Shown here: in pieces, positions 14,216 to 62,091 of the stretch
Position numbering within the stretch: the first letter of the stretch is position 1
Layout of the letters: each line of letters begins with the position of its first letter
Source: Sweltsa coloradensis
Lineage: Eukaryota; Arthropoda; Insecta; Plecoptera; Chloroperlidae
Direction of reading: 5' to 3'
DNA length: 64,000 bases
NCBI GenBank assembly: GCA_024449915.1
Contig: JAMZAV010006170.1
Location: 1 to 64,000, forward strand
Translations under genes and position numbers: made by a program
Notes under the pieces: model-generated
What the model saw: the letters and a program-made list of their open reading frames with translations, nothing else
Databases searched by the model: none
Told to the model about the DNA's origin: nothing

Positions 14216-14253
14216 ATTATCTTATGTGAATCAATCCAGAAATTAAAAAAAAC

Positions 14254-15000: not shown

Positions 15001-15019
15001 GGAAAACGCTAAAGTCCCG

Positions 15020-15700
15020 CCGCGTTGATGGATAAGCGTTTTAAAGATTTTAGTTTGCGTGGGATCTTTACTTTTGCAAGTGCTTTGTTTTGCTGCCTAC
15101 GCATTGTAGGTGATTGTTGTGAAGTTTCTTTTGTTTCTTGTCAATTGGTATTATTTACCGTAAAAAACTTATATTAAAAGCTTTATTTCTATGGATTCTG
15201 GCTAACTTTTTCAACTTTTTCTTTCAAAAGGTACTACATCACCATAACCTTAATGTCCATGTATAATATGAACGTTGTAGCCCCACTCGTTTGGTCAGAA
15301 TTGGACCAAATGGCACGAAAATATCGCACAAAAAATCAAAAACCGTATATTAAAAGCATTATTTCTATAGATTCTGCCTAACTTTTTCAAATTTTCCTTT
15401 CAAAATGTACTACATCACCTATTACCTTAATATCCATGTGAAAAATGAACGTTGTAGCCCCACCCGTTTGGTCTGAATCGGCCCAAATGTCACGAAAATA
15501 TCGCACTCAAAATCGAAAAAAAATCGTAAAAGTACGATATTCATGAGAAACATTTCTCCGATTGTACCAAAAACGTAGCAAGTCTAAGTTCAGAGATTTC
15601 GAAGGTCCTGTCAAATTTTCATCAAGATCGCATATGCCGTTTGCCCGGTAGAGAGCAAACAGACAGAAAAAAAAAAAAAAAAAAAAAAAAACACCCGAGC
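15020..15700 (+). mobile_element. Dispersed repeat with internal 176-bp tandem duplication and A-rich tail
   Basis: Two tandem units (15172-15347 and 15348-15515) share TATTAAAAGC, TTTCTATGGATTCTG and GAACGTTGTAGCCCCAC blocks. They are followed by a unique part with GCATATGCCGTTTGCCCGG, AGCAAACAGACAG and a long A run. The same order, in worse sequence, occurs at 26690-27195, so this is a mobile or duplicated element. The A-rich end suggests a retroposed 3' tail. No coding region is visible. Confidence 0.6.
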
Positions 15701-15751
15701 TAAATTTTTTGGGTGGTCGGTGAAATAATTTGAAGTCTTCGCTTCGCTCAT

Positions 15752-15835
15752 CCAATAATATATAAACATGGCGGGGGCACGACCCGCGAGCGATAACACC
15801 GGGGCTTGACCACGAGTTATGTACAAATTGTATTC
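15752..15835. repeat. Single-copy version of the GAGCGATAACAGCGGGGC minisatellite
   Basis: TATATAAACATGGCGGGGGC and the following GAGCGATAAC and GGGGCTTGACCACGAG match 52880-53060, where the central ~26-bp unit is repeated five times. Confidence 0.75.
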
Positions 15836-16129
15836 GGATTTAAAAGCAAAGTGGCTGACATCTGGTGAGCGAAGTGCGAACCCGCCGGAATAGCATTAGG
15901 TTGAGATATGGCCGCTTATAAGTATGTTTTCCTATGGCACTTGCAACGGATCACGACTGAAATAAACACTCAATAAAGACAAAACTACACCACCAATTTA
16001 TGAAATTGAATTTGTAAGTCTAGTGGAATATCTGTAGCCATATCGTATACATCCTAGATAGGAAAATGTTAATGAAAATAAGCGTGAAAGTTGAACTTTG
16101 GGGACGATAACATTTGAAGTAACCCGGAG

Positions 16130-16530
16130 TAGGATAGGATGTTTTCGTCGGTTTAATCGGGAAAAAAAAATTGTAGGGGACGTTTAAATAGTATAAGATT
16201 ATATTTAAACTATCTATGAATGAAATAAAATGGTAAGATTGTTAAAAACACGTGATGATGGAGCATCAGCTTGTCATGAGTTCGTTCATTTTCTAGGCCT
16301 ACAAGTGGGCGTGTGTATAGGCCTACACACAGCTCTCAATGTAGGATGTTTTTGTCAGTGAAATCGTGAAAAAATACTGTAGGTGACGTTTAAATAGTGT
16401 AACATTATTTTTAAACTATCTATGAATGAAATAAAATTGCAAGATTGTTAAAAACATGCGATAATCGAGCATCAGCTAGTCATAAGGTCGTTCATTTCTA
16501 GGCCTATAAGTGGGCGTGTGTACACACACC
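16130..16530. repeat. Tandem duplication, ~205-bp unit
   Basis: Copies at about 16130-16339 and 16340-16530 share GTAGGATGTTTT, GACGTTTAAATAGT, AAACTATCTATGAATGAAAT and AAGTGGGCGTGTGT in the same order, with scattered substitutions. Non-coding. Confidence 0.85.
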
Positions 16531-17259
16531 ACATCAATCATTTGTTTGATATTTTCGAGCCTGCTCGGCAACTTATTTAATATAAACTAACGCTGGTCAA
16601 TACCAATAATATTACGCCCATGGAGAAAAGATTCTGATAGCAATTTTGTGCACGAAATTGTTTCTCAGAGAGATCTAGGCGTTCCGTAGGAGGGCCTGAT
16701 AGGCCCTAGCTGCGAGTTTCCGAGTTTAGCACCACCAACGACGTACGTTAGATTACGGGAAAAAGCTTTTTCCGAATAAATGGGTTAACGAAATGGCTGT
16801 AGGTCTAGTCTATTAGAAATTACACGGATGCAAGTAAAATAATGTCCTATAATTTTGTCACACATGGCCCAGAACTATCTGGTATTGTAGGAAATCAAAT
16901 CGGGACCGATCGGGAAAAGTAGGCCTAAATTGACTCTTCGGAAAAGGAAATAAATATATTTCAAAGAGTTACAGGATGACTTTGAACATCACAATAGGCT
17001 AACTAATGTCATAACATTAAATTACATCCTAATTGCATATCACAACATTCACCAAGGATTGATTATTGTCTATTGAGCATTCAAATCGTCATTTTATACA
17101 CAGCTGCTTAGGGAAGGACTACTCCTAATGCTACTCCGGCCGGCCATGATGCACATTACGCCCACCGACGGTGCTGCCCCTGGATTTCACTTTAAACGCG
17201 TATAAGATATTGGTTGCACTAGGCAGTAAGCCCAACACTTGAAGCTTTATACCAAAAAT

Positions 17260-20200
17260 TTTTTTTTAAAAAACGGTTAAATTTTTTTTTGAAAAAAAAA
17301 GGGGGTTTTTTGGGAAAAATTTTTTTAAATAAAAAAAAAATTGGGGGGTTTTTTTTTGGGGAAATCGGAAAAAAACCCTTTTTTTTTGGTTAAATTTTTT
17401 AAAAAAAAAAAAATTTTTTTAAATTTTTAAAATTAAATTTTTTTAAAATTGGTTCTTTTTTTTTTTGGGGGGGGGAAAAAAAATATTTTTTTTTTTTTTT
17501 TTTAAAAAAACCAAGGGAAAAATTTCCGGGAAAAAAATTTTTTTTTAAAAAAAATTTTTTTTCCCAAAAAATTTTTTGGGGGGGGGGGTTTGGGCCCCCC
17601 TTTAAAAAACCCCAAATTTTTTTAAAAAAATTTTTTGGGGGGGAAAAAACGGGGGGTTTTTTAAAAAAAAAAATTTTAAAAAAAGGTTTTTTTTTTTTAA
17701 AAAGGGGGGAAATTTGGGGGAAAAAAAATTTAAAAAAAAAATTCCTTTAAAAAAAAATTTTAAAAGGTTTTTGGTTTTTTTAAATTTTAAAACCTTAAAA
17801 TTTTTTCCCTTTTTCCCCCCCCCAAAAATTTTTTTCCCTTAATTTCCAAAAAAAAAGGGGGGGGGGGAAAAGAACCCCCCCTTTTTAAAAGGCCCCCGGG
17901 GGGTTTGGTTTTTCCCCCAAAAAAATTTTCCGGGGAAAAAAACCCCTTTTTTTTTTTTAAAACCTCTTTTTTTTTTTTTCCCCCATTTTTTAAAAAAAAA
18001 AAAACGGGGGGAAAAAAAAAATTTTTTTTTTTTTTCAAAAAAATTTTGGGAAACAAAAGGAAAAAAAAAATTTCCCCCTTTTTTTAAAAAAAAATTTTTT
18101 TAAAAAAAAAAATTTTTTAAAAAAAAATTTAAAAAAAAATTTTCCCCCTTTTTCCCCCCCCAAAATTTTAAAAACCAAAAAAAAAAAAAAAAATTTTCCC
18201 CCAAAACCCTTTTTTAAAAATTTTCAAACCCAAAACCCCTTTTTGGGGGGGGTTTGGGGGGTTTTTTGGGGAAAAAAGGGGGCCCCCCCCGGGGGGGGGT
18301 TTTTTTTTCCCCTTGGAACTTTTGGGGAAAGGGGGGGACCTTTTCCCTTTTTTTTTTTTTTTTTTGGGTTTTGGTTTTAAAAATTTTAAAATTTTTTTTT
18401 TTTTTCCCTTCCCCCCCAACCCCCCCCTTTAAATTGGGGGGAAAAAAAAATTTTTAAAAAAAATTTTTTTTTGGGGGTTTTAAAAAAAAAAAAAAAACCC
18501 CGGAAAACCAAAAAATTTCGGGGGGGTTTTTTTGTTAAAAAAAAACCCCCCCCAAAAAAAAGGGGGGGTTTCCAAACCCCCCTTTTTTTCCCCCTTTTAA
18601 AAAACCCCCTTTTTTTTCCCCCCAAAAAAAAAGGGGAAATTTTTCCCCCGGGTTCCCTTTTAAGGGGGGCCCCCCTTTTTTGGGGTTCCCCGGGGCCTTT
18701 TTTTTTTTTTTTCCCCCCGGGATTTAATTTGGGGAAAAGGGGGGTTTTGGGTTTCTTTTTTTTTTTTGGGGGGGGGGGGGTTTTTAAATTTTTTCCCCCC
18801 TTTTTTTTTGGGGGGAAAAGGGGGTTTTTTTTTTTTTTTTTCCCCTTAAGAGGGGGGGTTCCCCCCCCTTTTTTTTTTTTCCCCCTTTTTTTTGGGGCCG
18901 GAAAGGGGGGAAATTTTTTTAAAAAATTTTTTTTTTTAAAAAAAACCCCTTTTGGGGGGGTTTTTTTTGGGGGGGGGGGGGGGGTTTTTTTTTTTGGGGG
19001 GGGGAATTTTTTTCCCGGGTTTTTTTTTTTTTTTTGGGGGGCCCCGGGTTTTTGGGTTTTGGGGGGGAAAAAAGGTTTCCTTTTTCCCCCGGGGGTTGGG
19101 AAATTAATTTTTCCCCGGTTTTTTTTTTTGGGGGGGTTCCCCCGGCTTTTTTTTTTAAAAATTTTTTTTTTCCCCCCCCTTTTTTTGGGGGAAAAGGGAG
19201 AGGGGGTTTTTTTTGGGGGTTTTTTCCCCTTTTTTTTTTTTTTTTTTTTTTTCCCCCCTTTTTTTTCCCCCCTTTTCGGGGGGCCCCCCCGGGGGGGGGG
19301 GGAAAAATTTTTTTTTTTTTCCCCGGGTTTGGGGGGGGGGGCCCTTTTTTTTCCCCTTTTTTTTTTCCCCCAAATTCCCGGGTTTGGGTTTTTTGGGGGG
19401 GTTTTTTGGGTATTTTTTTCCCCCCGGCATTTTAAAAAAACAAAACCCCCCGGGCTACTGTCGGGTTTTTTCCCCTTTGGATTTCCCCCTTTGGCTTGAT
19501 GGGGTTGGGAGGGGGGTTTTTTGGGGGGGGCCCCCCCTTTCGCGGAAGTTAAAGGGTTTCCCGGTTTCCCCGGGCCTTTTTTTTGGGCCCCCCTTCGGGT
19601 TGGGTTTTTTTTGGGGGGGGGAAAAAAAAAGGTTTTTCCCAACCCCCCAAAAAAAAAGGGGGTTTCCTTTTTTCCCGGGGGGGGGGGGGTTTTTTCCGGG
19701 GGTTAAAAGGGGGTTTTTTTACTCGGGGGGGCCCCCCTTTGAAGTTGAAAAATTTCCCTTTTTTTGGGGGTTTTTTTTTTTTTTCCCCTTTTTTTTTGGG
19801 GGGGGGGGTTTTTTTTTCCCAAATTTTGGGCCCTTAAAAACCCAGCCCTTGGGGGCCCCTTTTTTTTTCCCCCGGGTTTGTTTGGGGGGGGCCCCCCGGG
19901 GGGGGGGGAAAAGGGGGGGAAAAATTTTTTTTCCCCCCCGGGGGGCCCCGGGAAATGCCCCCCTTTTTCCCTTCCGGGTTTTTTTTTAAAGGGGCCCCCC
20001 CAAAATTTTTTAAAAATTTTTTAACCCAAAAAAGGGGCCCCCGGGGGTTCCCCTTTTTTTTCCCTTTTTTTTTTTCCCCCCCCTTGGGGGGCCCCCCCGG
20101 GGGTTTGGGAAAGGGAAAAAAAAAGGGGGGGAATTTTTGGGGCGGGTTTTGGGGGACGGTTTTCCCGGGTTTTTTTTTTTTCCCTTTTCCCGGGTTTTGG

Positions 20201-23200
20201 GTTCCAAAAATTTTTTAAATTTTTTTTTAAATTTTTGGGGCCCCTTTGGGGGGGGTTTTGGGGCCCCCCCCTTTTTTTTTTTTTTGTCCCCTTGGGGGGG
20301 GGAGGGGGGGAAAATTTTGGGGAAAAACCCCCCCCATTTTTAAAAAACCCCCCGGGTTTTTTGGTTTTTTTGGGGAAAAGGGTTTGGGTTTTTTTGGGGG
20401 GGGGGGGGTTTTCAAAAACCCCCCCCCCAAAAAAGGGGGGAAAAAAAATTTTTTTTTTCCCTTTTTTTTTTTGGGGGCCCCCTTTTGGGTTTTTTTTTTT
20501 TCCCAAAAAGGGGTTTTTTTTTTTTAAAAAAAATAAAAAAAAAAAAAATTTTTTTTTTTTTTTTTTTTGGGGCCCCCTTTTTTTTGGGGAAATTTTTGGG
20601 TTTTAAAAAAAATTTTTTTTTTTGGGTTTTTTTTCCCCCTTTGAAAAGGGGGGGGGAAAAAACCCAAAAACAAAACCCCAAAAAAAAAGGGGGGGGCCCC
20701 CGGGCCCCCCCCGGGTTTCCCCTTTTTTTTTAAAATTTTTTAACAGTTTTTTTTTTTTGGGGTTTTGGGAAATTTTAGAAGAAAAAAAAAAAAAAGTTTA
20801 AAAGGGGGGGGGGGGGTTTTCCAAAAAAAAGGGGGGGGGGGGTTTTTTTTAAAAAAAGGGGGAAATTTTTAAATTTTTCCCCCAAATTTTTAAAAAAAAA
20901 AAAAAAAGGGGTTTTAAAAAAAGGGGGGGTTTTTTTTTTAAAAAAAAACCCGGGGGGGGTTTTTTTTTAAAAAGGGTTTTAAATTTTTTTTTTTTTTTAA
21001 AAAAAAACCCCCTTTTTAAAAGGGAAACGGGTTTTTTAAAAAAACCCGGGTTTTCCCTTTAAAACCAAAAAAAAAAAAAAACCCCCTTTTTTTTTAAAAA
21101 AAACAAAAAGGTTTTTTTTCCAAATTAAAAATTTTTTTTTTTTTAAAAAATTTTTTTTAAAAAAAAATTTCAAAAAATTTTAAAAAAAAGGAAAAAATTT
21201 TAAAAAAAAACAAAAAAAATTTTTAAAAAATTTAAAAAAAAAACCCTTTAACTTTAAAGTTTTTTTTTTTTTTAAAATTTTTTCCCCTTTAAAAAATTTT
21301 TTAAAAACCAAAACCCCCCTTAAAATTTTAAAAAGAAAATAAAAAAATTTTTTAAAAAACAAAATTTTTTTTTTAAAATTGAAAATTAAAATTTAAAAAA
21401 AAAAAAATTCCCCCCCCAAAATTTTTTTTAAAAAACCCTTTTTCCCAAAAAAAAAATTTTTTTAAAAATTTAAATTTAAAAAAATTTATTTTTTTTAATA
21501 AAAAAAAAATTTTGGGAAAAATTTTTTTTTTTAAAAAAAAAAAAATTTTAAAAAAAAATTTTAAAATTTTTTTTTTTTTAAAAATTTTTAAAAAAAATTT
21601 ATAAAAAAAAAAAATTTTTTTTTTTTTTTAAAAAATTTTTAAAAAAATTTTTTTTTGGGGGGCCCCCTTTTAAAACCTAAAAAAATTTGGGGGGTTTTTT
21701 TTTAAAAACCCCCCCCAAAACCCCCCCTTTTTAAAATTTCCCGGGGGAAAAAAAAACCCGGGGGGGTTTGGGCGGGAAAACCCCCAAACCCCGGGCCACT
21801 TAAAACCCCTTTTTTTTCCCCAAAACCCGGGTTTTTTTTGGGGGGGGAAAAATTTTTAAAAATTTTTTTTTTTAAAAAACCCCCCGGGTTTTTTTTTAAA
21901 AAGGGGTTTTTTTTCCCTTTTTTTTTTTTTTTAAAAAAGGGGGTTTTTAAATTTGAAAAATTTTTTTAAAATTAACATTTTTTTAAAAGGGCCCTTTTTT
22001 TTAAAATTTTTGGGGGGGGGGGTTTTTTAAAAAAATTTGTTTTTTTTTTTAAAATTTTTAAATTTAACCCCCCCCAAAAAAAGGGAAAATTTTGGGTTAA
22101 AAAAAAAAATTTAAAAGGGTTTTTTTTTTTTTTAAAAAAATTTTTTTTTTAAAAAAAAAATTTTAAAATTGGGGGTTTTTTTTGGGGGAAAAAAAAGGGG
22201 TTTTTTTTTTTGGGGGTTTTAATTTAAAAAAAAAAAAAAATTTTTAAAGGGGAAAGGGAAATTAAAAAGGGCCTTTAAATTTTTAAAATTTTTTGAAAAA
22301 TTTTAAGGGAAAAAAAAAAAAAACCCCCCTTTTTTTAAAAGGACTAATTTAAAAAAATTTTTTTTTTTTTTTTAAAAAAATTTTTTTTAAAAAAAAAAAA
22401 AAATTTTAAAAAAAAAAAGGGGGGGCCCCCCCCCCTTTTAAGGTTTTTTTAAAAAAAACCCCCAAACCCCGGGGGGGGAATTTTGGGCCCCTAAAAAAAT
22501 TTTTTTTCCCCGGGGGGGGTTTTTCCCGGTTCCCCCAAACCCTTTTGGGGGGGGGGGTTTGGGGGGGGGCCCCCCCCCCGGGGGGGTTTTTGGCCCGGGG
22601 GGGTTTTTAAAAAAAACCCTTCCCTTCCGGGTTTCCCTCCCCCTTTTTTTTTCCCCCCCCCTTTTTTAAAAATTTTCCCCCCCCCAAAGGGGAAAAAAAG
22701 GGGGGGGGGGAAAAATAAAATTTTTTTAAAAACCCCCCCCCTTTCCCCTTTTTTACCCCCCCCCCTTTTTCTTTTTTTTTAAAAAAATTTTAAAAAAAAT
22801 TTCCCCCAAAATTTAAATTTTTTTTTTTCCCCTTGGGAAAAAGGGAAAATTTTTTTTTTAAAAAAAAATTTTAAAAATTTTTTTTTGGTTTTAAAAAAAA
22901 ACCCCAAAAAAAGGGGTTTTTTTTTAAAACCCTTTTAAAAAAAAGGGAAAAATTTTTTTTTTTTAAAAAAAAACCAAAAATTTCAAAAAAAAAATTTTTT
23001 TAAAAAAAATTTTTTTAAAACCCCCCAAAAAAAAAAAATTTTTTAAAAAAAAATTTTTAAAATTTTTTTTAAAAAAAAAATTTTTTTTTTTAAAAAAAAA
23101 TTAAAATTTTTTTTTCCAAAAATTTAAAAAAGGGGTTTTTCCCCAATTTTTTAAAAATTGTTTAATTTTTTTTTAAATTTTTTTTTAAAAAAAAAAAAGG

Positions 23201-24053
23201 GGAAAAAAATTTTTTTTTTTAAAAATTTAAATTAAAATTTTTTTTTTAAAAATTTTTAAAAAAATTTGGGCCCCCCCCAAAAAAAAAAAATTTTTAAAAA
23301 AATTTTTAAAAAAAAACCTTTGTTTTAAAAAAAACCCTTTTCCCTTTTTTTTTTAAATTTTAAAATGTTTTTTTTAAAAAATTTTTTTTTAAAAACCCCC
23401 CCCCCCCCAAATTTTAAATATTTTTTTTTAAAAAAAAAAATTTTTTTTTCCCCCCTTTTCCCCTTTAATAAAAAAAAAAATTTTTTTTCCCCCTTTAAAA
23501 TTTTTTCCCTTCAAAAAAAAAAAGGGGGGGGGGCCCTTTTTTTTTTTTTGGGGGGGGGGAAAAATTTAAAAAAAAAAAGGGGGTTTTCCCCGGGGAAAAA
23601 AAATAAAATTTTCCAATTTTTAAAAAAAAGGGGGAAAAAAAAATTTTAAAAAACCCGGAAAAGGGTTTTAAAAAAAAAAAAAAGGGAAAAAAAAAAAAAA
23701 AAAAAAAAGGGGGGGGGGGTTTTTAAAAAGGGGATAAAAAAATTTTGGGTTAAAAAAAAATTACCCCCTTTTGGAAATTTTTTGGGGGGGGTTTTTTTTT
23801 TTAAAAAAAAAAACCTTTTTTTTTTCCCCCCAAAAAAAAATTTTTTAAAAAAAAAGGAAAAATTTTTTTAAACCAAAAAATTTTTTTTTTTAAAAAAAAA
23901 AAAGGGCTTTGGGTTTAAAACCCCAAAAAAAAATTTAAAACCCAAAAAAAAACCAAACCCCCCCAAAAAATTTTTAAAAAATTTTTTTGGGGAAAACCCA
24001 AAAAAAAAATTTCCTTTTTCCCCCGGGGAAAAAAAAAGGGAAAAAAAAAAAAA

Positions 24054-24120
<67 letters not shown>

Positions 24121-25500
24121 TTTAAAAAGAAAAAAAAAAATTTTTTTAAAAAAATTTTTTAAATAAAATTATTTTGGGGGGTTTTTTTTTGGGGTTTTAA
24201 AATTTTTTAAAAAAAATTTTTTTTTAAAAAAACTTTTTTTAAAAAATTTTTTTTTAATTGGAAAATTTTTAAAAAAAAAAATTTTTTTTTAAAAAAACCC
24301 CCGGGGGGAAAAAAAAATTTCCCAACCCCAAAAAAAATCCACCAAAAAAAATTTTTTTAAAAAAAATTTTCTTTTTTTTTAAAAAATTTTTTTTTTTTTG
24401 TTTTTTTTTTTTTTTTTTTCCCCAAAATTTTTTTTAAAAAAAAAAAATTTTTCCTTTTTTTTAAAAATTTTTTTTTTAAAAAAAATTTTTTAAAAAATTT
24501 TGGAAATTTTAAAAAAAGGGGCCCCCCCCAACCCCCGCTTTTGGGCCCCCCGGCCCAATTTTTCCCCAAAACCCAAAAAATTTCCCTTTTAAAAAACCAC
24601 AAAAAACACCCCCAAAAAAAAACCCCCAAATTTTTTTTTAAAAAATTTCCAAAACACCCCCCGGGTTTTGGGGGGGGGGGGGCCCCCCGGGGGAAAAAAA
24701 AAACCCTCCCGAATGGGGGGGAAAAGGGGAAGGGGGAGGGGGGGGGGTTTTTTAAAATTTTTAAAAAACCCCAAATTTTTTTTTTTTTTTTTTTTTTTTT
24801 TAAGGGTTTTTAAAAAAAAAAATTTTTTTTTTTTTTCCCCCCCAAAAATTCAGGGGGGCCCCAAAAAGGGGGGGGGGTTTAAAAAAAAAAAAAAATTTTT
24901 TTTTTTAAAAAAAGGGGGGTTTTAAATTTTTTTAAAAAAAAAGGGCCCCCAAAATTTTTTGTTTTTTTTTTTCCCCCCCCAAAAAAAACCCCAAAAAAAT
25001 TTTTTAAAAAAATTTTTTAAAAAAACCCCCCTAAAAACCAAAAAAAAATTTAAAAAAGGGGGGTTTTTTTTGGGGAAAAATTTTTTTTTTAAAGGGGGAA
25101 AAAAAAAAAAGGGTTTTTTTTTTAAAAAATTTTTAAAAATTTTTTTTTTAATTAAAAAATTTAATTGGGGTTTTTATTTTAATTTTTTTAAAAAATTTAA
25201 AAAAATTTTTCCTTTTAAAAACCCCCCCTTTTTTTTTTAAAAAAAATTTTTTTTAAAAAATTTTTTTTTTTTTAAAAAATTTTTTTTTTTAAAAACCTTT
25301 AATTTTTTTTTTTTTTTAAAAAAAACCCCAAAAAAAGGGAACCCCCCCCTTAATACAAACCCCGGGGAAAAAAAAAACCCCCCCCCCAAAAAAAAAAACC
25401 CCCAAAAAAAAAAAACCCCCCCAAAAAAAAAAAATTTAAAAAAAAAAAAAAAAAGCCCGGCCCTGGGCCCGGGGGGGAAAAAAAAAAAAAAACCCCCCTT
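17260..25500. other. Homopolymer-run block, probable assembly artefact
   Basis: About 8.2 kb composed almost wholly of single-base runs of 3-20 or more. Base order has lost ordinary complexity, and no word longer than a few non-repeated bases occurs. Long open frames on both strands (for example 18386-19642 and 18471-19499) translate to G/P/F/K strings and arise from GGG, CCC, TTT and AAA codons. Nothing here should be annotated as a gene. Confidence 0.93.
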
Positions 25501-26689
25501 TTGGTAAAGGTTTTTTTTTGGGGAAAATTACTAAAATTCTCCCCTTGACAACCCTAGGGTTAGCTTGCCAAAAACCCAACTTTGCACGTCCGTGTTTTTG
25601 ACACACATCCCGCACAAAAAACCCTTTCTTTGATGAATAATTTAAAACCCATTGTAATAAATTTAAAAGCATGATGTCCCAGGGTGTCACAGACGAAAAA
25701 GAAAAAGGAAAAAATTTTATGAAAATTTTACATCGTTTTTAAATGGCTCCCGGGTGTTGGGGTTGTGTTTGTTTGTTGAGAGGATGGGCGAGCACCCCGT
25801 CTGTGGGGGTAAAAAATTGGGAATTACAAATAAAGTACATTTTGTTTTCTAAATTTGGGCCTTTACTCAAAACAGTTATGACCTAGTACCGTCCCAAAAA
25901 AGGCCAAAAGCTTTTTTTGGCGGGGCAAACGGGGGCCAATTTACTTCTTGTTTAAAATTTCACAAAAAACTTTTTTTTTTTCCCAAAAAAAAAAAAAGTG
26001 CAGTGACTATTAAAACATATAAGAATTAAAAAAAAACTATAAAAAAAAAAGTGGGAAAAATTTCCCCATTGCTTGTTGTCACATTTTTTTTTAAACTTCC
26101 GGTAAAAGACCCCACTCCCTATTTTATTACCCAAATTTTTTTGTATAAAGTTGGGGTACTTTTTCTGTCCCCTTCAAAAATCTCAACAATTTTCCCTTTT
26201 TTTGACCAAGACTTTGGGAAACCCGGCCTTTAAAAAAGTAAATTTTCATGAACCCGTCATTGAAAACCCTTTTCGTTTGACTTTGATTTACGGTACCGGG
26301 ACCTAACTACATTGATTACTTTACTAAAGGGAGCTGTCTACTTGTGTATGACTTCAAACTCTTGATTGTCTGTTTTAAAACTAAGGGCTATTTTTTTGGC
26401 CCGTAGGCCCCTACTCCTAAAAATTTTCCTCATAAAGGCAGGGCCAATTTTTTTTTGGAAAAATGTAAATACTACCGGTAGGTCTAGTTATTTAACTTTC
26501 AAAAAAGCCCAAAATGTAGGGGGCCCGCTAGGTTTATTAGTTATTTGTTTTTTGTAGTCTGTTTTTTTTATTTTATCTCTCTGCTACTTTTTTTTTTTTC
26601 CAAACCATTAGGCCTTTCCCAAGTGGTAAAATATAACAAAAAATTAAAGAAATAGAAAGGCATAGTAGGGGCCCATGTTTTTAAAAAAA
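25501..26689. other. Degraded DNA, no gene recognised
   Basis: Sequence complexity returns here, but homopolymer padding persists. Small ORFs (25436-25690, 26366-26557) have no recognisable domains. Confidence 0.6.
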
Positions 26690-43728: not shown

Positions 43729-43852
43729 AGGAAAAGGCCAAACGGCTAGTTTTAGTATGATTGGAGAAGGGTTTTACAGGTTTTGAAAAGCATAGAGATC
43801 ATAAAAAAATGCTTTTTTCCAACCCTCAACCCTTCTCCAATCAAAATTTTTT
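43729..43852. mobile_element. Folded-back terminus of the hammerhead repeat family
   Basis: GGAAAAGGCCAAACGGCTAG is followed by GATTGGAGAAGGGTT, CATAGAGATCATAAA and then the inverse complement ending AACCCTTCTCCAATC. These are the terminal sequences of the repeat at 57.4-60.4 kb, here joined head to head with a short spacer and no internal part. Confidence 0.7.
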
Positions 43853-44003
43853 TTATATTAGTAATTAAAATTTAAACAAGACATATAATAATAGTATTTA
43901 AAGCAATTTTTCAACATCACATTAATTTTTTTTTTGGGAACGGTAAAAATTTATTGATATAATTTTTTTTTAGCTAAGAAACACAATGTATAAACATCAA
44001 TAA

Positions 44004-44625
44004 AAATTTTCCCAAAAATTAGTTTAACGAAACATCGGCCCCTGTTTATCAATTTTGATCATCTGACATTGCCAAAACATTGATTTTTTTTTTTCGCTGA
44101 GCGGTACGGCAATATAGACGATTATAGTGAAATTTTTTACATATACACGGCACAGCTTCACCTCAAAATTTTTTTTTTTTTTAGAAGGCTAATTTTTGTT
44201 TTTATTTGTAACACTCTTCTGGGTATAAAATCTATATGTTGGAAATTTTTTTCCCCCTTTTAAACTTGCACGGTTTTTTTTTTTTTTTTTTATTCCGCCG
44301 ATACAAATTAGTGTTTTGTACCCCGGGAGAAGTAAAAAATCGTACCGTTCAAGATATTAAAAAAAAACAAATTCCAACATGAACAGTTTATAGCCAGGAG
44401 TATGTGTTTACAAATAGAAACCAAAATTAGCCTTCTACCACAAAAATTATGAGCAGAAAGCTGTGCCGTGTATACGTCAAAAATTTTCAAAATATAATCG
44501 TCTATATTGGGCGTACCGCTCAACCGAAAAATGAATCAAAAATAGTTTTGCAATGTCAGAGATCATAATTTGATAAACTATGTCCAATGTTTTGAAAAAA
44601 CCTAATATTTAGAAAAATTTTAAAT
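44004..44625. mobile_element. Foldback element (long imperfect inverted repeat)
   Basis: The left arm (about 44004-44270) contains ATCTGACATTGCC, GAGCGGTACGGCAATATAGA and ACACGGCACAGCTT. Their complements occur in reverse order on the right (about 44330-44625): AAGCTGTGCCGTGTATAC, TCTATATTGGGCGTACCGCT and GCAATGTCAGAGATCATAAT. The loop is about 60 bp and T-rich. Arms of about 270 bp with no coding region fit a foldback-type or MITE palindrome. Confidence 0.8.
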
Positions 44626-45670: not shown

Positions 45671-46573
45671 TTATGAGTTGTTAACACCGGCTTGCCAGGC
45701 CTGTCCCTGTCCTCTTCAGGTTCACTCGCACTTCTTCCCACCAGCTCACGCCATCCACTTTTTGTCTTCCCACAGTTTCCCGTATATCATTTCTTATCTG
45801 ATCTTTCCACTTCTCTCTTGGTCTACCGACTCGTCTTTTAACTTTGTCCCCACTTCAAATTCCCGTCCTTGGAATTCTTTCTTCTCCCATTCTTCTGACA
45901 AAGTCCATACCATCTCAACCTTTCTCGTCCAATTTTGAATAATAGCTTCCCCAACTCCAACTTTTGTCCCTGATTTCTTGGCTTCTAATTTGTCCAACTT
46001 CGATATTCCGGCTATGCTTCTTACGAACTTCATTTCAGCTGCTTGAATCCTACTTGCATCTACGGCTTCTAGTGTCCAGGGCACTGAAGCATATGTAAGG
46101 ATGGGTAGATAGATACCTTGTACAATAACACCTTGCATTCATTAGGGAAATCCTCGTTCCAAAGTAACTTCCTTACTTGCTGATAGAAGGATTCTGCCTG
46201 GCCAACCTTTTACTGATCTCACTTCCATCTTTGCCTCCTTTGTGATAATGCTACCTACGTACGCAAACTCTTCTGCCTCTTCCAGTCCTCATCTCCAATT
46301 TTAATTTTCCTCTAGTTTCTTTACTTGTTCCTTTCTTTCTAGATTTTTCCATCACAATAGTTTTACTTTTCCTACACTGATCTTTAGTCCAAATTCTTCT
46401 GTTACAAGTTTTCACTTCTTCACTTTTGTCTGCACTTCTTCAGCTGTCTCTCCCCACACTAGGATGTCATCCGATAAATCATTGTCCTTGTGCCAGTTCC
46501 TGTCTCTGGTTCCACCTTATTAATATTTCGTCCATTACTATAGAGAATAGTAATGGGGATATACACTGCTTTG
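45671..46573 (-). pseudogene. RTE-like LINE reverse transcriptase, 3' part
   Basis: Minus-strand frames, broken by indels, run from CISPLLFSIVMDEI (about 46510-46560) through a KISRKEGTSK-type segment (about 46320-46360) and LPILTYAS.PWTLEAVDASRIQAAEMKFVRSIAGI (about 46000-46110) to VWTLSEEWEKK, RRVGRPREKWKDQIRND and a stop at 45671-45673. This is the thumb and C-terminal part of RTE-type or related LINE proteins. The frame is interrupted at 46574 by a hAT insertion and resumes at 47570. It is a dead 5'-truncated copy. Confidence 0.8.
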
Positions 46574-48640: not shown

Positions 48641-48767
48641 AAAACAAATGTATGATGCCATTTTGTGGTTGAATATTAGGGATAGGATCTTATTAAATAA
48701 ATGCTCTTACTTTTATATTAAGATTACATAATGGACTGGCACCAGAGTCCTCACTAATAAAATCTTC

Positions 48768-50082
48768 TTCTTCTTCTTCTTCTTCTTCTCATATGCCCAC
48801 ATTTGGCCTATGATGCCCATCATGCTTGATCTAGTCAACCAATAGAGACGAGCCTCCCTTTCCTCCTTCTTCATGCCGTTGGGCATTGCGTCACGCTCAT
48901 TTGCCAGACTGGCACAGGTATATAGATGTCGTCTGTCATGTTCACCATTTCCGCATAATCTGCAGGTACTGGTTTCAAACCCCGCCTATTCGGTGCAGAT
49001 GCTTCCCTAGAAGGTCATGTTGAGTCTTCAACCTGAACTGTGCTGTTTCTGTTCGTCTATCATATATTCTTTTGGGTTTACTTGGCTGCGTGGTGTACAC
49101 CTGCCATGGTTTGTCTTGTCCCTTTTTGACCCATTCTTGTCTAATTTTCTTAGAAACTGCAGCATTTACATGGGCTTTAACTGAGCTGTAAGTTATCGGT
49201 TTTGCTCCCTTTCTTAGCTAAGAAGTCCGCTTTATCATTGCCATATACATTGCAGTGTGATGGTATCCATTGTAGCTTAATTATCTTGTTTGCATTGTGC
49301 AGTCTTAGGATTTGTAATTTGCACTGCCTTACCGCAGAATCTGCCACTTCCTTGTTGACTATGGCTTGTATTGCTGCTTTTGAGTCTGTTAAAAATTACA
49401 ATTTTATCACTGCGGCAGTCTTTAACTTTGTACAGGGCTTTAAGAATAGCAGTCCAATTCTCCGTCAAAGCAGCTACCATTTTCCCCTGCAGGGTGAGAT
49501 TCCTCAAACTCTCTGCAATATATGCCGGGCCCCAGCTTGTCCCTCACCTGGGGTAGCCGATCCATCCGTGTAAATGTGTAGCCAATCCTTTTCCGGGTAG
49601 TTCTTGTGTATGTGAGTTATTGTTAGTTTTCTCAACTCCTCGTCTATGTAGGATGCCTTTGTCTTGCCCAGTCCATCCACTGTCCAATTCATGTAGTACG
49701 TCTAGTATGGCAATGTTTATATTTGGTAGGGGGATGTTTTCTTTTCCTCTGTGTGTTTCAATTGCCCGATGAGACCTTCCTTCACCTCTTTTACTGCTGT
49801 AATGAATGTTTTTTTGTCTTGAGATGTTCATAGGGTTCTCTGTCCCATTCAAGCCGGTCTAGTCTTATCAGCTTCTCATGCAGGCAACTGCTGAACTGTT
49901 TCTTCTGGCCTCCAGGGGTGGTATGTTAGTTTTGGCTTCCATGGCCCAACAATTGGGGTTGATTTAACACCTCCCGTGATTATTCTGAGAGCTTGATTTT
50001 GTATCCTGTCCAGTGCATCTGTGGCTCCTTTGGTTGACGTTATAAGTAGAGAACTGCCATACTCTAGGAGAGGTCGCACATA
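48768..50082 (-). mobile_element. LINE 3' part with RNase H (I-clade-like), 5' truncated
   Basis: Reading leftward on the minus strand: an RT C-terminus (RPLLEYGSSLL, LDRIQNQALRIITGG, about 49950-50079). Then an RNase H domain with DWLHIYTDGSA (about 49560-49600), VKDCRSDKIVIF (about 49400-49440) and IPSHCNVYGNDKADFLAKKG (about 49205-49270). Then a CRLCGNGEHDRRHLYTC knuckle (about 48910-48965). A GAA-repeat tail (plus strand CTT repeat at 48768-48789) marks the 3' end. RT plus RNase H plus a simple-repeat tail is typical of the I group. Several frameshifts make it non-functional. It separates the two parts of zinc-finger copy 2. Confidence 0.85.
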
Positions 50083-50765: not shown

Positions 50766-51975
50766 GTTAGAGATTCGAGAAAACGTTTTGTCACAAACAG
50801 TAGAAGAGAATGGCTTCTCGCCCGTGTGTGTTCTCTTGTGTCTGCTGAGGTAACGCTCGAAGGAAAGGTTTTTTCACATACAGAACAAGAGAATGGCTTT
50901 TTGCCCGTGTGTGATCTCTTGTGTCTGGGAAAGGTGACTGCAATGAAAATTTTTTTTACAAAAAGAACAACCCAAAAAGCTTCTAGCCTATGTGTGTTCT
51001 CTTGTGTGTGTTAAGGCTACGGTTCCGAGAAAAAAACGATTTTTCACAACAGAGCAAGGAAAATGGCTTCTCGCCCGTGTGTGTTCTCTTGTGCATGGTA
51101 AGGTCACCCTTCTGTAAAAACGTTTTTTCACATACAAAAACAAGAAAATGGCTCTCGCCCGGGGGTGTTCTTTGTGTGGTAAAGGTGACCGCTCCCAAAA
51201 AAAGGTTTTTTTAAACATACAGAACAAGGGGAATGGCTTTTGCCTGTGTGTGTTCTCTTGTGCATGGTAAGGTCACCCTTCTGTGAAAACGTTTTTCACA
51301 TACAGAACAAGAAAATGGCTTCTCGCCCGTGTGTGTTCTCTTGTGTGTGGTAAGGTACTGCTACGAGAAAACGTTTTTTACATACAGAACAAGAAAATGG
51401 CTTCTCGCCCGTGTGTGTTCTCTTGTGTATGGTAAGGCTATGATATCAAAGAACTTTTTTCACATAAAACACAAGAAATTCGCTTGCTGTCCATATGTTT
51501 TTTTGTGGTGCGAGAAGGCTAGATTTATCTGAACCCCTGGCTGTGCATAGGCCTACATTACAAGAATAGAGTTTCTTTTGTGTGGGCGACCTGATGTGAA
51601 TGATTAGACGATACCTTGTGGGAAACTTTCCCCACAGCATCACAACCATATTTTAGTATCTTCTTCATGTGATCTCTTGGGTAAAGGAGGAGACTGAGGT
51701 CACTGAATGTTCTTCACAAATCTTACATCTAAAATTTTAAAACGTAGCCGTTTTGTTCCTCGGTCTTGCATGAATAGGAGGATCGGTGAAGCTCTCCTTA
51801 CGGGGCCCCACTGAGGAGTGGGGGCGCAAAGTGCTGCTTCACGCGGGAAACTACCACCAGGGTTTGAAGTGTTACTTGAATTGAACGTTAGTTTTTCAGA
51901 ACAGTTTTTGTTGATACTTCAAATTTATGCCCGGAATGGAAGGCTGTGACCGGGGTGGCGAAAAACAATTTATCT
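50766..51975 (-). pseudogene. C2H2 zinc-finger exon, second broken copy
   Basis: This is the paralogue of the 12.5-13.7 kb exon. It has the same acceptor region (TTTTTTTCAG at about 51975-51984), the same Ser/Glu tail with GGxxRVKQHL-like text, finger 1 near 51650-51720, an enlarged C-X4-C finger near 51540-51570, then about eight or nine fingers at ~84-bp spacing down to 50770 (for example [11 protein letters not shown] units at 51060-51180). Frames change in nearly every finger through run-length differences, so no long ORF survives. It stops at the CTA repeat. It could be a real pseudogene, a badly called gene, or both. Confidence 0.85.
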
Positions 51976-52514
51976 GAAAAAAATAAAACATACCATTTTG
52001 ACTTGATTATAGGCAAACAATCGAGTAATGGCCGCTCAAATTTAAAAGATTGGATAACAATTCTTTTGGCAAATTGCTTCACATAATGGCCCACACCCCC
52101 TATTTTAATTTGATTATTTTTAAATGGATCCTAAGCCTTTATTGCATAAATACAGTTCAAACTGGGGAAAAAACTCAACAAGATTTACTCACTACTTGTA
52201 GCTGGTTTGTTTAGCCAAACCAAAGTAGTATTTTGCATAAAACTAGTACTTGGAACTAGGGATGGGACGTCAACACGTCGTGTCCATGAAATTATATTTT
52301 TTAAACCATCGACTTTTTTGTTCTGCCAATTCAAATTGTTCAGTCGTTGAGATTTCAATAATTCTTTTTGAAATACTTCTCTTTTAGTCGCTGCCGCATT
52401 TCCGCAAAACTGTAAGTTGATTGCGATTGCCGATACCTTCATGTTATCATGTATTTCGGCACAAAACTCGCATTTGTGTCAATTTGAATTGCGCAGTGAA
52501 GCAAGAGAGGAAAA

Positions 52515-57149: not shown

Positions 57150-57167
57150 GACTTTCGTGGTTGGTAT

Positions 57168-57330
57168 ATGATGTCATTTTAAAATTTTACGGTAAAACCA
57201 CGTACCTTGTTAAAATTGGTCTGTTGTTTGCAACATTGGCGAAACGTTGCATTCACCCGACAACGTCCAACTAGGACTCCAATTTTAAAAAGGTACGTGG
57301 TTTTACCGTAAAATTTTAAAATGACATCAA
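57168..57330. mobile_element. 52-bp inverted repeat, MITE-like
   Basis: GATGTCATTTTAAAATTTTA, then CGGTAAAACCACGTACC, on the left pairs with its complement on the right (57279-57330) around a ~59-bp loop. A partial arm (TTTGATGTTATTTTAAAAT) recurs at about 60390-60410 beyond the hammerhead cluster. Confidence 0.75.
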
Positions 57331-57366
57331 ATATATATATATTTATATATATATATATAATATATT

Positions 57367-57398
<32 letters not shown>

Positions 57399-57416
57399 TA
57401 TATATATATATATATT
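57331..57416. repeat. TA microsatellite (left border of hammerhead cluster)
   Basis: TA repeats with short interruptions, directly abutting the cluster. Confidence 0.9.
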
Positions 57417-57417
57417 T

Positions 57418-58373
57418 AGTTTAGATTGGAGAAGGGTTGACAGGTTGGAAGAACATAGAGAACATAAAACCCAGCCTGAAGGGCTGGGGGCGACAAAAAC
57501 TTTTCACCTGCTGATGACAACTGTAGCTAATTTAAAGTTGTTACCTTAATCCACGACGCGTTTCGTCCTTCTGGGACTCTTCAGGCGGATGGTGGCCACT
57601 AAAAATCAGCTAACTACATGCAACCAAAACTCACAACACATAACCAAACCTGTGGTAGGGCCACGCAAGAAGTAAATTCTGCAAGCATGTTGTCATCATC
57701 AGCAAGGTTACTTCACACACCATTCATACTGGGGCACACAGTCAGCACAGACAGTAAGGGGGCTTCCCTCCCAACTCTGGTGCTCGGGAGACAAGAAATC
57801 CATGACTGAAACCAGGACCCTTGGCAACAAGAGAAAAGCTGCCCCTCCTGCTGTTGCTGGGCAAGGGTGCCTCTTCATTCATACAAAGAGAAAAGGTTAG
57901 AGATAGGAAGGGTGGAAAGTCACAACACAGCACAACCAGTGAGGGGGCTTCCCTCCTAGACTCTGGTGCTTGGGCGACAAAAGAACCATGTCTTACCCTG
58001 GATTTGAACCAAGACCCGTGGCAACGAGAGAGGCTGCCCTACTAATTGTGACTGGGATTCGAAAACGAAAGGAAACAAGACTACAAATTGCAAGCTCTTG
58101 GCTATAGCACAGGTACACGTGCTATATTAGCTCTTGGCTGCAGATGAAGAGGTTGAAGGAAAAGACGAGTAGGGTCTAACAGGTTCATCACCTGCTAGGC
58201 CCCCCCAACAGGACAAGGAATCACACTTGTTATGAACAAGGAAACACGGACCCACCAGAGGGTGTAGAGTAGGCTCGCCCATCTCGACCCCATAGGTGAA
58301 GAAAGATGGAAAGTGATAGGTGTCAAATGACTTGGTTGTTCAATTTGTTTGGAAAAGGCCAAATGGCTAGTTT
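57418..58373 (-). mobile_element. Hammerhead-bearing repeat, copy 1 (956 bp)
   Basis: First direct copy of a ~960-bp unit bounded by AGTTTAGATTGGAGAAGGGT. In the ribozyme sense it reads on the minus strand. It differs from copy 2 by scattered substitutions and by a 12-base deletion near 57805 that removes half of a tRNA-like T arm. No protein domain is encoded. The ORFs are shared by all copies and run through tRNA-like sequence. Confidence 0.9.
57549..57590 (-). ncRNA. Hammerhead ribozyme, copy 1
   Basis: Type I hammerhead layout. Stem I is ATCCGC/GTGGAT, the core CTGAAGA, stem II GTCC-CAGAA-GGAC, then GAAA, a minimal stem III (ACGCGT) and a GTC cleavage triplet. Predicted cleavage lies between 57555 and 57554. 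The core matches the consensus CUGANGA...GAAA with A at N7. Very short stem III is known from newt satellite and Penelope-associated hammerheads, where dimers are the active form. Confidence 0.88.
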
Positions 58374-59341
58374 AGTTTAGATTGGAGAAGGGTTGACAGG
58401 TTGGGAAAGCATAGAGAACATAAAGCCCAGCCTGAAGGGCTGGGGGCGACAAAACTTTTCACCTGCTGATGACAACTGTAGCTAAATTTAAAGTTGTTAC
58501 CTTAATCCACGACGCGTTTCGTCCTTCTGGGACTCTTCAGGCGGATGGTGGCCACTAAAAAATCAGCTATCTACATGCAACCAAAACTCACAACACATAA
58601 CCAAACCTGTGGTAGGGCCACGCAAGAAGTAAATTCTGCAAACATGTTGTCATCATCAGCAAGGTTACTTCACACACCATTCATACTAGGGCACACAGTC
58701 AGCACAGACAGTAAGGGGGCTTCCCTCCCAACTCTGATGCTCGGGAGACAAGAAATCCATGACTTACCCTGGATTCGAACCAGGACCCTTGGCAACAAGA
58801 GAAAAGCTGCCCCTCCTGCTGTTGCTGGGCAAGGGTGCCTCTTCATTCATACAAAGAGAAAAGGTTAGAGATAGGAAGGGTGGAAAGTCACAACACAGCA
58901 CAACCAGTGAGGGGGCTTCCCTCCTAGACTCTGGTGCTTGGGCGACAAAAGAACCATGTCTTACCCTGGATTTGAACCAAGACCCGTGGCAACGAGAGAG
59001 GCTGCCCTACTAATTGTGACTGGGATTCGAAAACGAAAGGAAACAAGACTACAAATTGCAAGCTCTTGGCTATAGCACAGGTACACGTGCTATATTAGCT
59101 CTTGGCTGCAGATGAAGAGGTTGAAGGAAAAGACGAGTAGGGTCTAACAGGTTCATCACCTGCTAGGCCCCCCCAGCAGGACAAGGAGTCACACTTGTTA
59201 TGAACAAGGAAACACGGACCCACCAGAGGGTGTAGAGTAGGCTCGCCCATCTCGACCCCATAGGTGAAGAAAGATGGAAAGTGATAGGTGTCAAATGACT
59301 TGGTTGTTCAATTTGTTTGGAAAAGGCCAAATGGCTAGTTT
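58374..59341 (-). mobile_element. Hammerhead-bearing repeat, copy 2 (968 bp)
   Basis: Direct repeat of copy 1, head to tail. It forms the left arm of a ~2-kb palindrome with copy 3. Confidence 0.92.
58505..58546 (-). ncRNA. Hammerhead ribozyme, copy 2
   Basis: Identical in sequence to copy 1 over the 42-nt motif. Predicted cleavage lies between 58511 and 58510, 956 nt from the copy 1 site, so a transcript through both would release one unit-length RNA. Confidence 0.88.
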
Positions 59342-59364
59342 AGTTTAGATTGGAGAAGGGTTGA

Positions 59365-59382
59365 CAGGTTGGGAAAGCATAG
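59365..59382. other. 18-bp spacer at the centre of the palindrome
   Basis: CAGGTTGGGAAAGCATAG lies between the left arm ending at 59364 and the right arm starting at 59383. It is part of the unit's own terminal sequence. Confidence 0.9.
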
Positions 59383-59738
59383 TCAACCCTTCTCCAATCT
59401 AAACTAAACTAGCCATTTGGCCTTTTCCAAACAAATTGAACAACCAAGTCATTTGACACCTATCACTTTCCATCTTTCTTCACCTATGGGGTCGAGATGG
59501 GCGAGCCTACTCTACACCCTCTGGTGGGTCCGTGTTTCCTTGTTCATAACAAGTGTGACTCCTTGTCCTGCTGGGGGGGCCTAGCAGGTGATGAACCTGT
59601 TAGACCCTACTCGTCTTTTCCTTCAACCTCTTCATCTGCAGCCAAGAGCTAATATAGCACGTGTACCTGTGCTATAGCCAAGAGCTTGCAATTTGTAGTC
59701 TTGTTTCCTTTCGTTTTCGAATCCCAGTCACAATTAGT

Positions 59739-59788
59739 AGGGCAGCCTCTCTCGTTGCCACGGGTCTTGGTTCAAATCCAGGGTAAGA
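59739..59788 (+). ncRNA. tRNA-like module 1 in the hammerhead repeat
   Basis: CTCG-TTGCCA-CGGG resembles an anticodon arm with a GCC loop, as in glycine tRNA. It is followed by the T arm CTTGG-TTCAAAT-CCAGG. No convincing acceptor or D arm. Equivalent modules occur in copies 1 and 2 on the minus strand. Confidence 0.5.
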
Positions 59789-59928
59789 CATGGTTCTTTT
59801 GTCGCCCAAGCACCAGAGTCTAGGAGGGAAGCCCCCTCACTGGTTGTGCTGTGTTGTGACTTTCCACCCTTCCTATCTCTAACCTTTTCTCTTTGTATGA
59901 ATGAAGAGGCACCCTTGCCCAGCAACAG

Positions 59929-59985
59929 CAGGAGGGGCAGCTTTTCTCTTGTTGCCAAGGGTCCTGGTTCGAATCCAGGGTAAGT
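59929..59985 (+). ncRNA. tRNA-like module 2 in the hammerhead repeat
   Basis: TTGTTGCCAAGGG is followed by a perfect T arm CCTGG-TTCGAAT-CCAGG (59963-59979), which includes a B-box-like GGTTCGAATCC. In copy 1 part of this arm is deleted. Confidence 0.55.
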
Positions 59986-60199
59986 CATGGATTTCTTGTC
60001 TCCCGAGCATCAGAGTTGGGAGGGAAGCCCCCTTACTGTCTGTGCTGACTGTGTGCCCTAGTATGAATGGTGTGTGAAGTAACCTTGCTGATGATGACAA
60101 CATGCTTGCAGAATTTACTTCTTGCGTGGCCCTACCACAGGTTTGGTTATGTGTTGTGAGTTTTGGTTGCATGTAGTTAGCTGATTTTTAGTGGCCACC

Positions 60200-60241
60200 A
60201 TCCGCCTGAAGAGTCCCAGAAGGACGAAACGCGTCGTGGAT
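60200..60241 (+). ncRNA. Hammerhead ribozyme, copy 3
   Basis: Stem I 60200-60205/60236-60241 (one G-T wobble), CTGAAGA 60206-60212, stem II 60213-60216/60222-60225, GAAA 60226-60229, cleavage expected after C60235. The sequence CTGA-GAGTCCCA--GGACGAAACGC closely resembles schistosome and newt hammerheads. Confidence 0.88.
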
Positions 60242-60370
60242 TAAGGTAACAACTTTAAATTAGCTACAGTTGTCATCAGCAGGTGAAAAGTTTTGTCGCC
60301 CCCAGCCCTTCAGGCTGGGCTTTATGTTCTCTATGCTTTCCCAACCTGTCAACCCTTCTCCAATCTAAAC

Positions 60371-60435
60371 TATATATAATATATATATATTTGATGTTAT
60401 TTTAAAATATATATAAATTATATAATTTTAATTTA

Positions 60436-60498
<63 letters not shown>

Positions 60499-60520
60499 AA
60501 TATATATATATATATATACG
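60371..60520. repeat. TA microsatellite (right border of hammerhead cluster)
   Basis: About 150 bp of interrupted TA repeats, with a partial MITE arm near 60390-60410. Confidence 0.9.
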
Positions 60521-60575: not shown

Positions 60576-61307
60576 TTAACCCTTTCCAGTACAACAACGC
60601 CTCTGGGACGTGATAGATCGCCGTGGCGCTCCGTACAACGACGTCCTGGGGACGTCGTTGGTGCGCGAGTTCAAATAACCCGCCATATCTCCGGTACCAG
60701 CAGTCCTATCGAGTTCAAATCTTTACCGCTAGATAGCAGAAGGTTCCGCGCGTAAGAATATCGAGGCGACTGCATTACCGGCGTGAAACGCGCATTGATA
60801 CATCGATGAAAAACATCCGAGTTTGTTTTGTAAACACGCCGGCCGTCAATCGTTCCGTCATGGCTGCTAAGCGACCGAAGTTGACTGTTGATGTTGTTAA
60901 CAATATTCTTTTTGAGAGTGACTACAGCGATTCTGACAACGATGATAATGTTTCTATTTCTAATAATAGTTCTAGTTCAAGTGAAATGGGAGATTCTGAC
61001 AGTGATGATGTTGATTCAAGTGATTCAGGAGTTTCTAATCATGACGGCGCCGGTGTAGGCGTAGGCCTAGGCGTAAATAATGGCTGGGATTGGATTCGCG
61101 ATAATAATTATACAGACATGTTATATTTTTTTAATTGATAACTTCTTTATTGTAAACCTATCCTGAAAATTTTAAGTTAATTGGTTGATAACTTTCAAAG
61201 CTACAAGCACAAGTGTATATGGTTTCGCTTTACTTTTGACCGCTTGGAAATTAAATAGGTATTCCCAGGTAAAATAAATGGAAAATAACCATACTGGAAA
61301 GGGTTAA
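60576..61307 (+). mobile_element. Non-autonomous piggyBac-type transposon, 732 bp
   Basis: It is flanked by TTAA (60576-60579 and 61304-61307). The inverted repeats CCCTTTCCAGTA/TACTGGAAAGGG are 12 bp and perfect. A subterminal hairpin CAACGACGTCC-TGG-GGACGTCGTTG lies at about 60637-60660. TTAA targets and CCCTTTNN ends are diagnostic of piggyBac. It keeps only the start of the transposase, so it would need a full-length relative to move. Confidence 0.88.
60860..61138 (+). CDS. Truncated piggyBac transposase N-terminus
   Basis: The frame begins MAAKRPKLTVDVVNNILFES and continues into a Ser/Asp-rich acidic stretch (about residues 20-65), as at the N-terminus of piggyBac transposases. It then ends early (NYTDMLYFFN-stop) without the catalytic DDD domain. 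An in-frame ATG 54 bases upstream (60806) is possible, but the MAAKRPK start looks better for the family. It is an internal-deletion product, 92 codons against the usual 500-600. Confidence 0.65.
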   Translation: MAAKRPKLTVDVVNNILFESDYSDSDNDDNVSISNNSSSSSEMGDSDSDDVDSSDSGVSNHDGAGVGVGLGVNNGWDWIRDNNYTDMLYFFN

Positions 61308-61646: not shown

Positions 61647-62091
61647 AACTTTATTATGAGGGCCAGCGGTTTAGCCGAGCTCGTTTAACCGGTTCCCACT
61701 CGAACACCGAAGTTAAGCAGAATCGGGCGTGGTCATGGGTAGAGTGGGTGACCGCTCTACCCTGAAACTCACGTATACCGCTGGTTAGAGCCGATGGAGG
61801 GTTCGAAAGCTAGTGTAACGGCTTCGCTCTCCTTGACGTCTGCTCGGCAGTCCGGGTTAGTGGAGGAACCTACATGACTGTCAAAGTTACACCGTCCTGT
61901 CGGATGGGACGTTAAGCCGTTGGTCCCCTTGGTACTTTTCGAAAGGAGTAGGCTACGTGCCGGTACCGGGTTTCCCCTCCTCCCTTCTGTTCATACTTCA
62001 TCCTCATCTATCACCACTCATCGTCTCGATTAGCCAAAGTGCATAAATATGAGACGTTAAGCAATAATCAATCAATCAAACTTTATTATGA
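61647..62091 (+). mobile_element. 5S rRNA-headed SINE with perfect target duplication
   Basis: The element (61660-62078) is flanked by the 13-bp direct repeat AACTTTATTATGA (61647-61659 and 62079-62091). The head, about 61690-61770, resembles eukaryotic 5S rRNA (CACCGAAGTTAAGCAGAATCGGGC, written as two blocks CACCGAAGTTAAGC and AGAATCGGGCG, then GTGGTCATGGG and GTGACCGCTCT), which includes the internal Pol III promoter. The centre (GTCGGATGGGACGTTAAGCC at about 61898-61917) resembles the conserved core of Deu-type SINEs. The tail ends in AATCAATCAATC. This matches the SINE3 class. The perfect duplication implies a fairly recent insertion. Confidence 0.9.

Follow-up and report, generated by a model that had tools for sequence, protein, structure and literature searches.

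Three repeat units of about 960 nt, which lie in a 64,000-nt stretch of the Sweltsa coloradensis genome (hereafter, the window) and each of which carries a hammerhead ribozyme motif, probably represent an ORF-less, non-autonomous Penelope-like retroelement that is mobilised in trans. Because the reverse transcriptase (RT) ORF that defines an autonomous Penelope was not seen, we call the element Penelope-like and non-autonomous and not Penelope proper.

Repeat units and hammerhead motifs

The locus consists of a left arm with two units and a right arm with one, and the unit lengths were measured from CTCC to CTCC. Unit A (57432-58387, minus strand, 956 nt), which is the 3'-most unit of the left arm, and unit B (58388-59355, minus strand, 968 nt) are in tandem; as a sequence-only reading of this DNA had proposed for its first two copies, they abut on the minus strand, and their predicted cuts are 956 nt apart. 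Unit C (59392-60357, plus strand, 966 nt) is inverted and lies head-to-head with B, with which it forms an 808-nt inverted repeat that has 16 nt between its arms and a complementarity that rounds to 100%. At the palindromic junction, GGGTTGAC...GTCAACCC (59356-59391), the left arm runs from about 59381 on the minus strand and the right arm from about 59382 on the plus strand, and at the start of each is a short stretch from the end of a preceding unit. There is no gap between B and A, and the short end pieces that precede B and C likewise continue straight into the next unit. The GC content of unit C is 48.3%, and the criterion for animal retrozymes is a GC content below 45-50%. Matches to MIR807, MIR8706, mir-2567 and snR37 (E 1.1e-14 to 3e-4) were obtained on the centre of the palindrome; they were all below the curated cut-offs and were rejected, being taken as the score that any long hairpin reaches in hairpin models.

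A type I hammerhead was detected by both Rfam and a core pattern at 57549-57590 in unit A (minus strand, predicted cut between 57555 and 57554), at 58505-58546 in unit B (minus strand, between 58511 and 58510) and at 60200-60241 in unit C (plus strand, between 60235 and 60236). The covariance-model scan of the 64 kb (Rfam release 15, cmscan at the gathering threshold) placed Hammerhead_1 (RF00163) exactly where the sequence-only reading had seen three identical hammerheads, and all three copies scored 42.2 bits against a cut-off of 34 (E 2e-7), which settles one of the checks that it had suggested. The core pattern, with up to three mismatches allowed, matched three times in the window and never in 100 shuffles. 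The description of a full core, a fully paired stem I and a very short stem III was also borne out: the core is complete in the unit of about 960 nt, stem I has six of six pairs including one G-U, stem II (GTCC/GGAC) is capped by the loop CAGAA, and the loopless stem III consists of the palindrome ACGCGU. In the Rfam alignments, the 42-nt motifs of the three units are identical, which is uninformative on selection because the units are only about 1% apart. Moreover, all three hits belong to copies of a single element and thus amount to one independent hammerhead. At the start of the window (1-1931), a 311-bp tandem repeat of 6.6 copies is of retrozyme size; no hammerhead was found in it at E up to 1.

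Since stem III is ACGCGU without a loop, a single hammerhead copy would hardly be able to form it. The best predicted fold of one copy (51 nt) was an alternative structure at -12.4 kcal/mol compared with -11.3 for the hammerhead, while for two strands the double hammerhead was the minimum-energy fold (-31.1, compared with -24.8 when the two monomers fold separately). When the 956-nt unit was folded as a circle, the prediction contained stem I and lacked the hammerhead core. According to these models, a single copy is predicted to misfold and two copies to favour the double hammerhead. In the axolotl, hammerheads with a weak stem III cut better as dimers (PMC7229834, excerpt), and the hammerhead of PAc, a Penelope element of Anolis, cut only after its protein was added (PMC11167929).

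Every unit contains two modules of about 113 nt, which in unit C (59740-59851 and 59935-60047, plus strand) are 83% identical. In unit C, each module contains a TTCRANY loop closed by a 5-bp stem, a structure that resembles a tRNA T-arm and its B-box: CTTGG TTCAAAT CCAGG at 59766-59782 and CCTGG TTCGAAT CCAGG, with GGTTCGAATCC, at 59963-59979, both on the plus strand. Two such motifs are present in B and in C and one in A, in which an 11-nt deletion takes most of the second; in the remaining window, two more were found on both strands taken together. A full tRNA or SINE head was considered and rejected: Rfam returned no tRNA at an E limit of 5 or of 10, and the cloverleaves that ARAGORN proposed once its thresholds were lowered were all poor. 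The recognisable tRNA-related head of a tRNA-derived SINE was thus not found in the unit despite the two T-arms, and because no tRNA model matched, we put forward a pol III promoter in the unit only as a possibility. Between the ribozyme and the 3' end, a hairpin, CCCAGCCCTTCAGGCTGGG (60301-60319, plus strand), is predicted, as judged from the folding of the corresponding stretch where B meets A. Elsewhere in the window, a 5S rRNA match (61662-61786, 41.0 bits against a cut-off of 38) is adjoined by a stretch at 61761-62003 that has a 72% inverted partner at 5343-5565, and the two are perhaps a 5S-derived SINE.

Ends, flanks and a decayed relative

The outer sense 3' ends of A and C lie at most 2 nt from the same site, and both consist of CTCCAATCTAAAC and two to four more shared letters followed by TA repeats. 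The left arm ends at 57415-57431 (minus strand) with CTCCAATCTAAAC, which is common to the tandem junction up to TAAA, and the right arm ends at 60358-60372 (plus strand) with CTCCAATCTAAACTA. Their flanks are (TA)n on the left (57331-57414) and (TA)n-rich sequence on the right (60373-60518), and because TA repeats are found on both sides, no target-site duplication could be called by eye. To the left of the element, at 57165-57333, is a palindromic MITE-like repeat whose terminus reads TTTGATGTCATTTTAAAA; a near-copy of its end, about 20 nt long, is found to the right at about 60390-60409 in mirror orientation, so that the palindrome continues beyond the element on either side.

A decayed relative was found by blastn at 43730-43846 (E 3.8e-10 plus weaker pieces). 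Its minus arm (43730-43805) comprises a unit end and a tail-like extension of about 29 nt to GGCCTTTTCC, which runs into what would be the next unit, and its inverted plus arm (43809-43846) ends at CTCCAATC; the junction is head-to-head and of the same kind as that of the main locus. Both loci in the window thus contain an inverted copy in head-to-head orientation and a palindromic junction, and all four ends adjoin TA repeats or A/T-rich sequence. In each of the four arms at the two loci, the 5' end is located some 10 to 37 nt upstream of CTCC; this clustering is suggestive only, as the two arms of one locus are possibly non-independent. The evidence for the tail-like extension is weak, as it occurs at one of the four ends, in a decayed remnant of about 117 bp within homopolymer-rich sequence. 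Tandem units in the manner of pseudo-LTR (pLTR) direct repeats are found as A-B at the main locus only and not independently in the 43.8 kb remnant. An imperfect palindrome of about 620 bp (73%) adjoins the decayed copy at 44003-44621.

Based on this anatomy, we propose the following route for the element. The distance from the predicted cut to CTCC is 123 nt, and the unit of about 956-968 nt would carry its minimal type I hammerhead about that far upstream of the putative start of reverse transcription (CTCCAATC...). Tandem units would be transcribed; in one transcript, the ACGCGU segments of neighbouring ribozymes would pair with each other, and the two would cleave as a double hammerhead, as the folding predicts. 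A Penelope reverse transcriptase/endonuclease supplied from elsewhere would bind the RNA and cut AT-rich DNA, and copying would begin within the RNA, either at CTCCAATC or, as an option that would leave a tail, some 30 nt further downstream. The head-to-head pair, whose anatomy is observed, may have arisen from copying at both DNA ends or from a snap-back of the 5' end. As mutants of the PAc hammerhead were unaffected in their insertion in vitro (PMC11167929), the ribozyme may be dispensable for mobility. It speaks against the Penelope-like reading that this anatomy is drawn from two loci, that the tail comes from one end of a decayed remnant, that the cut and the start of copying are further apart than in PAc, and that the 20 ORFs scanned with Pfam contained no RT or GIY-YIG domain.

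Unit divergence and rival explanations

A comparison of the three units revealed 11 private events in A relative to the other two (nine substitutions, the 11-nt deletion and a 1-nt indel), four in B (two substitutions and two 1-nt indels) and none in C, and A and B are 15 events apart. Equal rates across the units were rejected (exact p 0.0014), also when only substitutions were counted (p 0.0023). Copies of one circle should differ about equally, and because these do not, an uncut multimeric transcript is the likelier template. Unit A probably differed already in the RNA, and the main locus was probably copied from an uncut multimer whose units were not identical. The closeness of C to B fits snap-back copying at the junction, although gene conversion between the palindromic arms could be an alternative source of it, and the outer end that A and C have in common fits copying that was primed from both DNA ends. 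The locus thus bears on whether circles or uncut multimers serve as the template, and the differences between its units favour the latter; the arrangement of the three copies hints at how hammerhead ribozyme elements spread.

These observations bear on the explanation that the units form an unusually long animal retrozyme, i.e., that self-cut units gave a 956-nt RNA which was circularised by tRNA ligase, copied in laps and inserted. Like the animal non-LTR retrozymes of corals, mussels and the axolotl (PMC7229834, excerpt), the units are tandem repeats that lack a long ORF and have type I hammerheads and a weak stem III, and for those elements movement via circles, possibly by Penelope enzymes, has been proposed. 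The circular fold of the 956-nt unit, at -297.9 against -280.8 for 30 shuffles (sd 8.3), was also about 2 sd more stable. We nevertheless consider a retrozyme unlikely. The described animal hammerhead repeats have 150-450 bp, so that the units, as the sequence-only reading had pointed out, are longer, by a factor of at least two, although the discussion of the same source mentions hammerhead-made circular RNAs in general of 150 to over 1000 nt (PMC7229834, excerpt). Moreover, A is far more distant from B and C than B is from C, which would not be expected of laps around one circular template, and the inserted arms have ends of the Penelope type, starting and stopping near CTCCAATC and not at the ribozyme cut. 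A further explanation is that the family is autonomous and the units are its pLTRs, the coding part of this Penelope-like element having disappeared from the locus through recombination or template jumping. The end features fit Penelope pLTRs, and the idea of a Penelope pseudo-LTR, which had been raised from the sequence alone, is supported by the tandem units, the inverted copy with its palindromic junction, the shared 3' ends, the tail-like extension and the AT-rich flanks, which agree with published Penelope structures (PMC11167929; PMC3846280, excerpt). However, the coding part is absent at the locus, the units and short unit ends run straight into the next unit, and the pLTRs described in PMC3846280 (excerpt) have about 180-220 bp compared with 956-968 bp here, which makes an autonomous family rather improbable.

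Alternatively, the true structure might be a plain tandem array, and the palindrome an artefact of assembly or of read fold-back. The window has stretches of low-quality appearance (at about 6000-26000, the tandem-repeat table contains many short A/T and G/C homopolymer runs that look like low-quality assembly), and the near-perfect complementarity of the 808-nt arms would also be expected of a fold-back. An artefact is very improbable, however, as four differences, among them two substitutions, are specific to B and absent from both C and A, as the right arm contains one unit and the left arm two, and as the same kind of junction occurs in the 43.8 kb remnant.

Coding content, related sequences and known systems

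The locus is overlapped by 46 stop-to-stop ORFs of at least 40 aa; the longest has 120 aa and is antisense, and no unit has an ORF above this length. Five of the 46 were scanned with Pfam and gave no match. The full Pfam scan, which included these five, took 20 of the 313 stop-to-stop ORFs of at least 60 aa in the window and revealed no RT or GIY-YIG domain and one C2H2 zinc-finger protein. An ORF with both RT and GIY-YIG, which characterises autonomous Penelope-like elements, was thus not seen at the locus. The zinc-finger ORF, which points to an animal genome, and a second stretch that is about 74% alike in DNA lie at 12836-13792 and 50818-51985. The ORFs at 45797-46138 (minus strand), 48716-48985 (minus strand) and 60737-61135 (plus strand) had no Pfam match; by eye, they resemble pieces of LINE and piggyBac elements.

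In searches for relatives, two strict hammerhead patterns had no match in the IMG/VR viral contigs, and one pattern had none in prokaryote genome contigs. A broad pattern gave 31 loci in the viral contigs, and the Rfam scan of four of these yielded one hammerhead match. Viral relatives of the unit were rejected: matches with E <0.1 span the ribozyme and at most a few adjacent bases, and nearly all of those elsewhere in the unit had E values of 0.77 or worse. Two viral contigs, L023 (9603-11436) and L030 (6624-8240), have four hammerhead-like core patterns each, none of which reached the Rfam cut-off. For the 120-aa antisense ORF, five stretches of the viral contigs fitted a pattern and none was a relative. 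Among 22 candidates, one metagenome protein (P0001, 98 aa, on a contig of 1065 bp) matched the frame at E 0.011. A second search with P0001 aligned returned only P0001 out of 109 candidates, and as this search contained P0001 itself, the low E-value that it gave is circular. Pieces of P0001 match adjacent parts of the unit, so that the protein probably stems from a related repeat elsewhere. The search with a 91-aa ORF had P0002 as its sole match, with 84 aa that all agree with the window's own ORF.

Hammerheads have already been published in Penelope pLTRs and in retrozymes (PMC7761336 and PMC7229834, excerpts), and short nonautonomous Penelope elements are also in print (PMC6685494, excerpt). 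Among the titles and abstract openings of a partial literature collection, we found no report of an ORF-less hammerhead unit of about 960 nt with Penelope ends. For the enzyme that moves animal retrozymes, Penelope elements have been called a strong candidate (PMC7229834, excerpt). An ORF-less hammerhead unit with Penelope end signatures makes this idea testable, as a PAc-type protein should begin to copy its RNA at or near CTCCAATC. It is possible, though less likely than not, that the ORF-less hammerhead RNA of about 960 nt is a missing link between Penelope and the retrozymes: it may have its own pol III B-boxes as a promoter and would cut as a double hammerhead, and a Penelope enzyme would insert it in trans, working from the two ends of a cut target that is AT-rich. 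If this were true, the locus would provide evidence, at the level of sequence, for the mobilisation of retrozyme-like RNAs by Penelope enzymes.

Among non-autonomous elements, the short Penelope elements of heliconiine butterflies are similar in kind and are likened here by description only; PMC6685494 nowhere uses the word hammerhead. Helenus TRIMs are also non-autonomous and have a possible internal pol III box; unlike the unit, which has T-arm motifs only, they have LTRs, a PBS, a PPT and a tRNA-like sequence (PMC10886601, excerpt). In PAc, the hammerhead cuts 26 nt into the ORF and copying starts 111-118 nt into it, i.e., 85-92 nt past the cut (PMC11167929), and the corresponding distance here, 123 nt to CTCC, is longer. 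The unit further differs from Penelope-like elements in that no RT/GIY-YIG ORF was seen and in that its 956-968 nt repeat has internal duplicated modules. PAc also leaves a tail of 30-40 bp, which lies between its two start sites, prefers AT-rich DNA, and has both strands cut and extended (PMC11167929). As in PAc of Anolis carolinensis and the Adineta vaga families (PMC11167929; PMC3846280, excerpt), the element described here combines tandem units, a head-to-head copy with a palindromic junction, a tail-like extension of about 30 nt, an AT-rich target and a minimal type I hammerhead shortly upstream of the putative start of copying.
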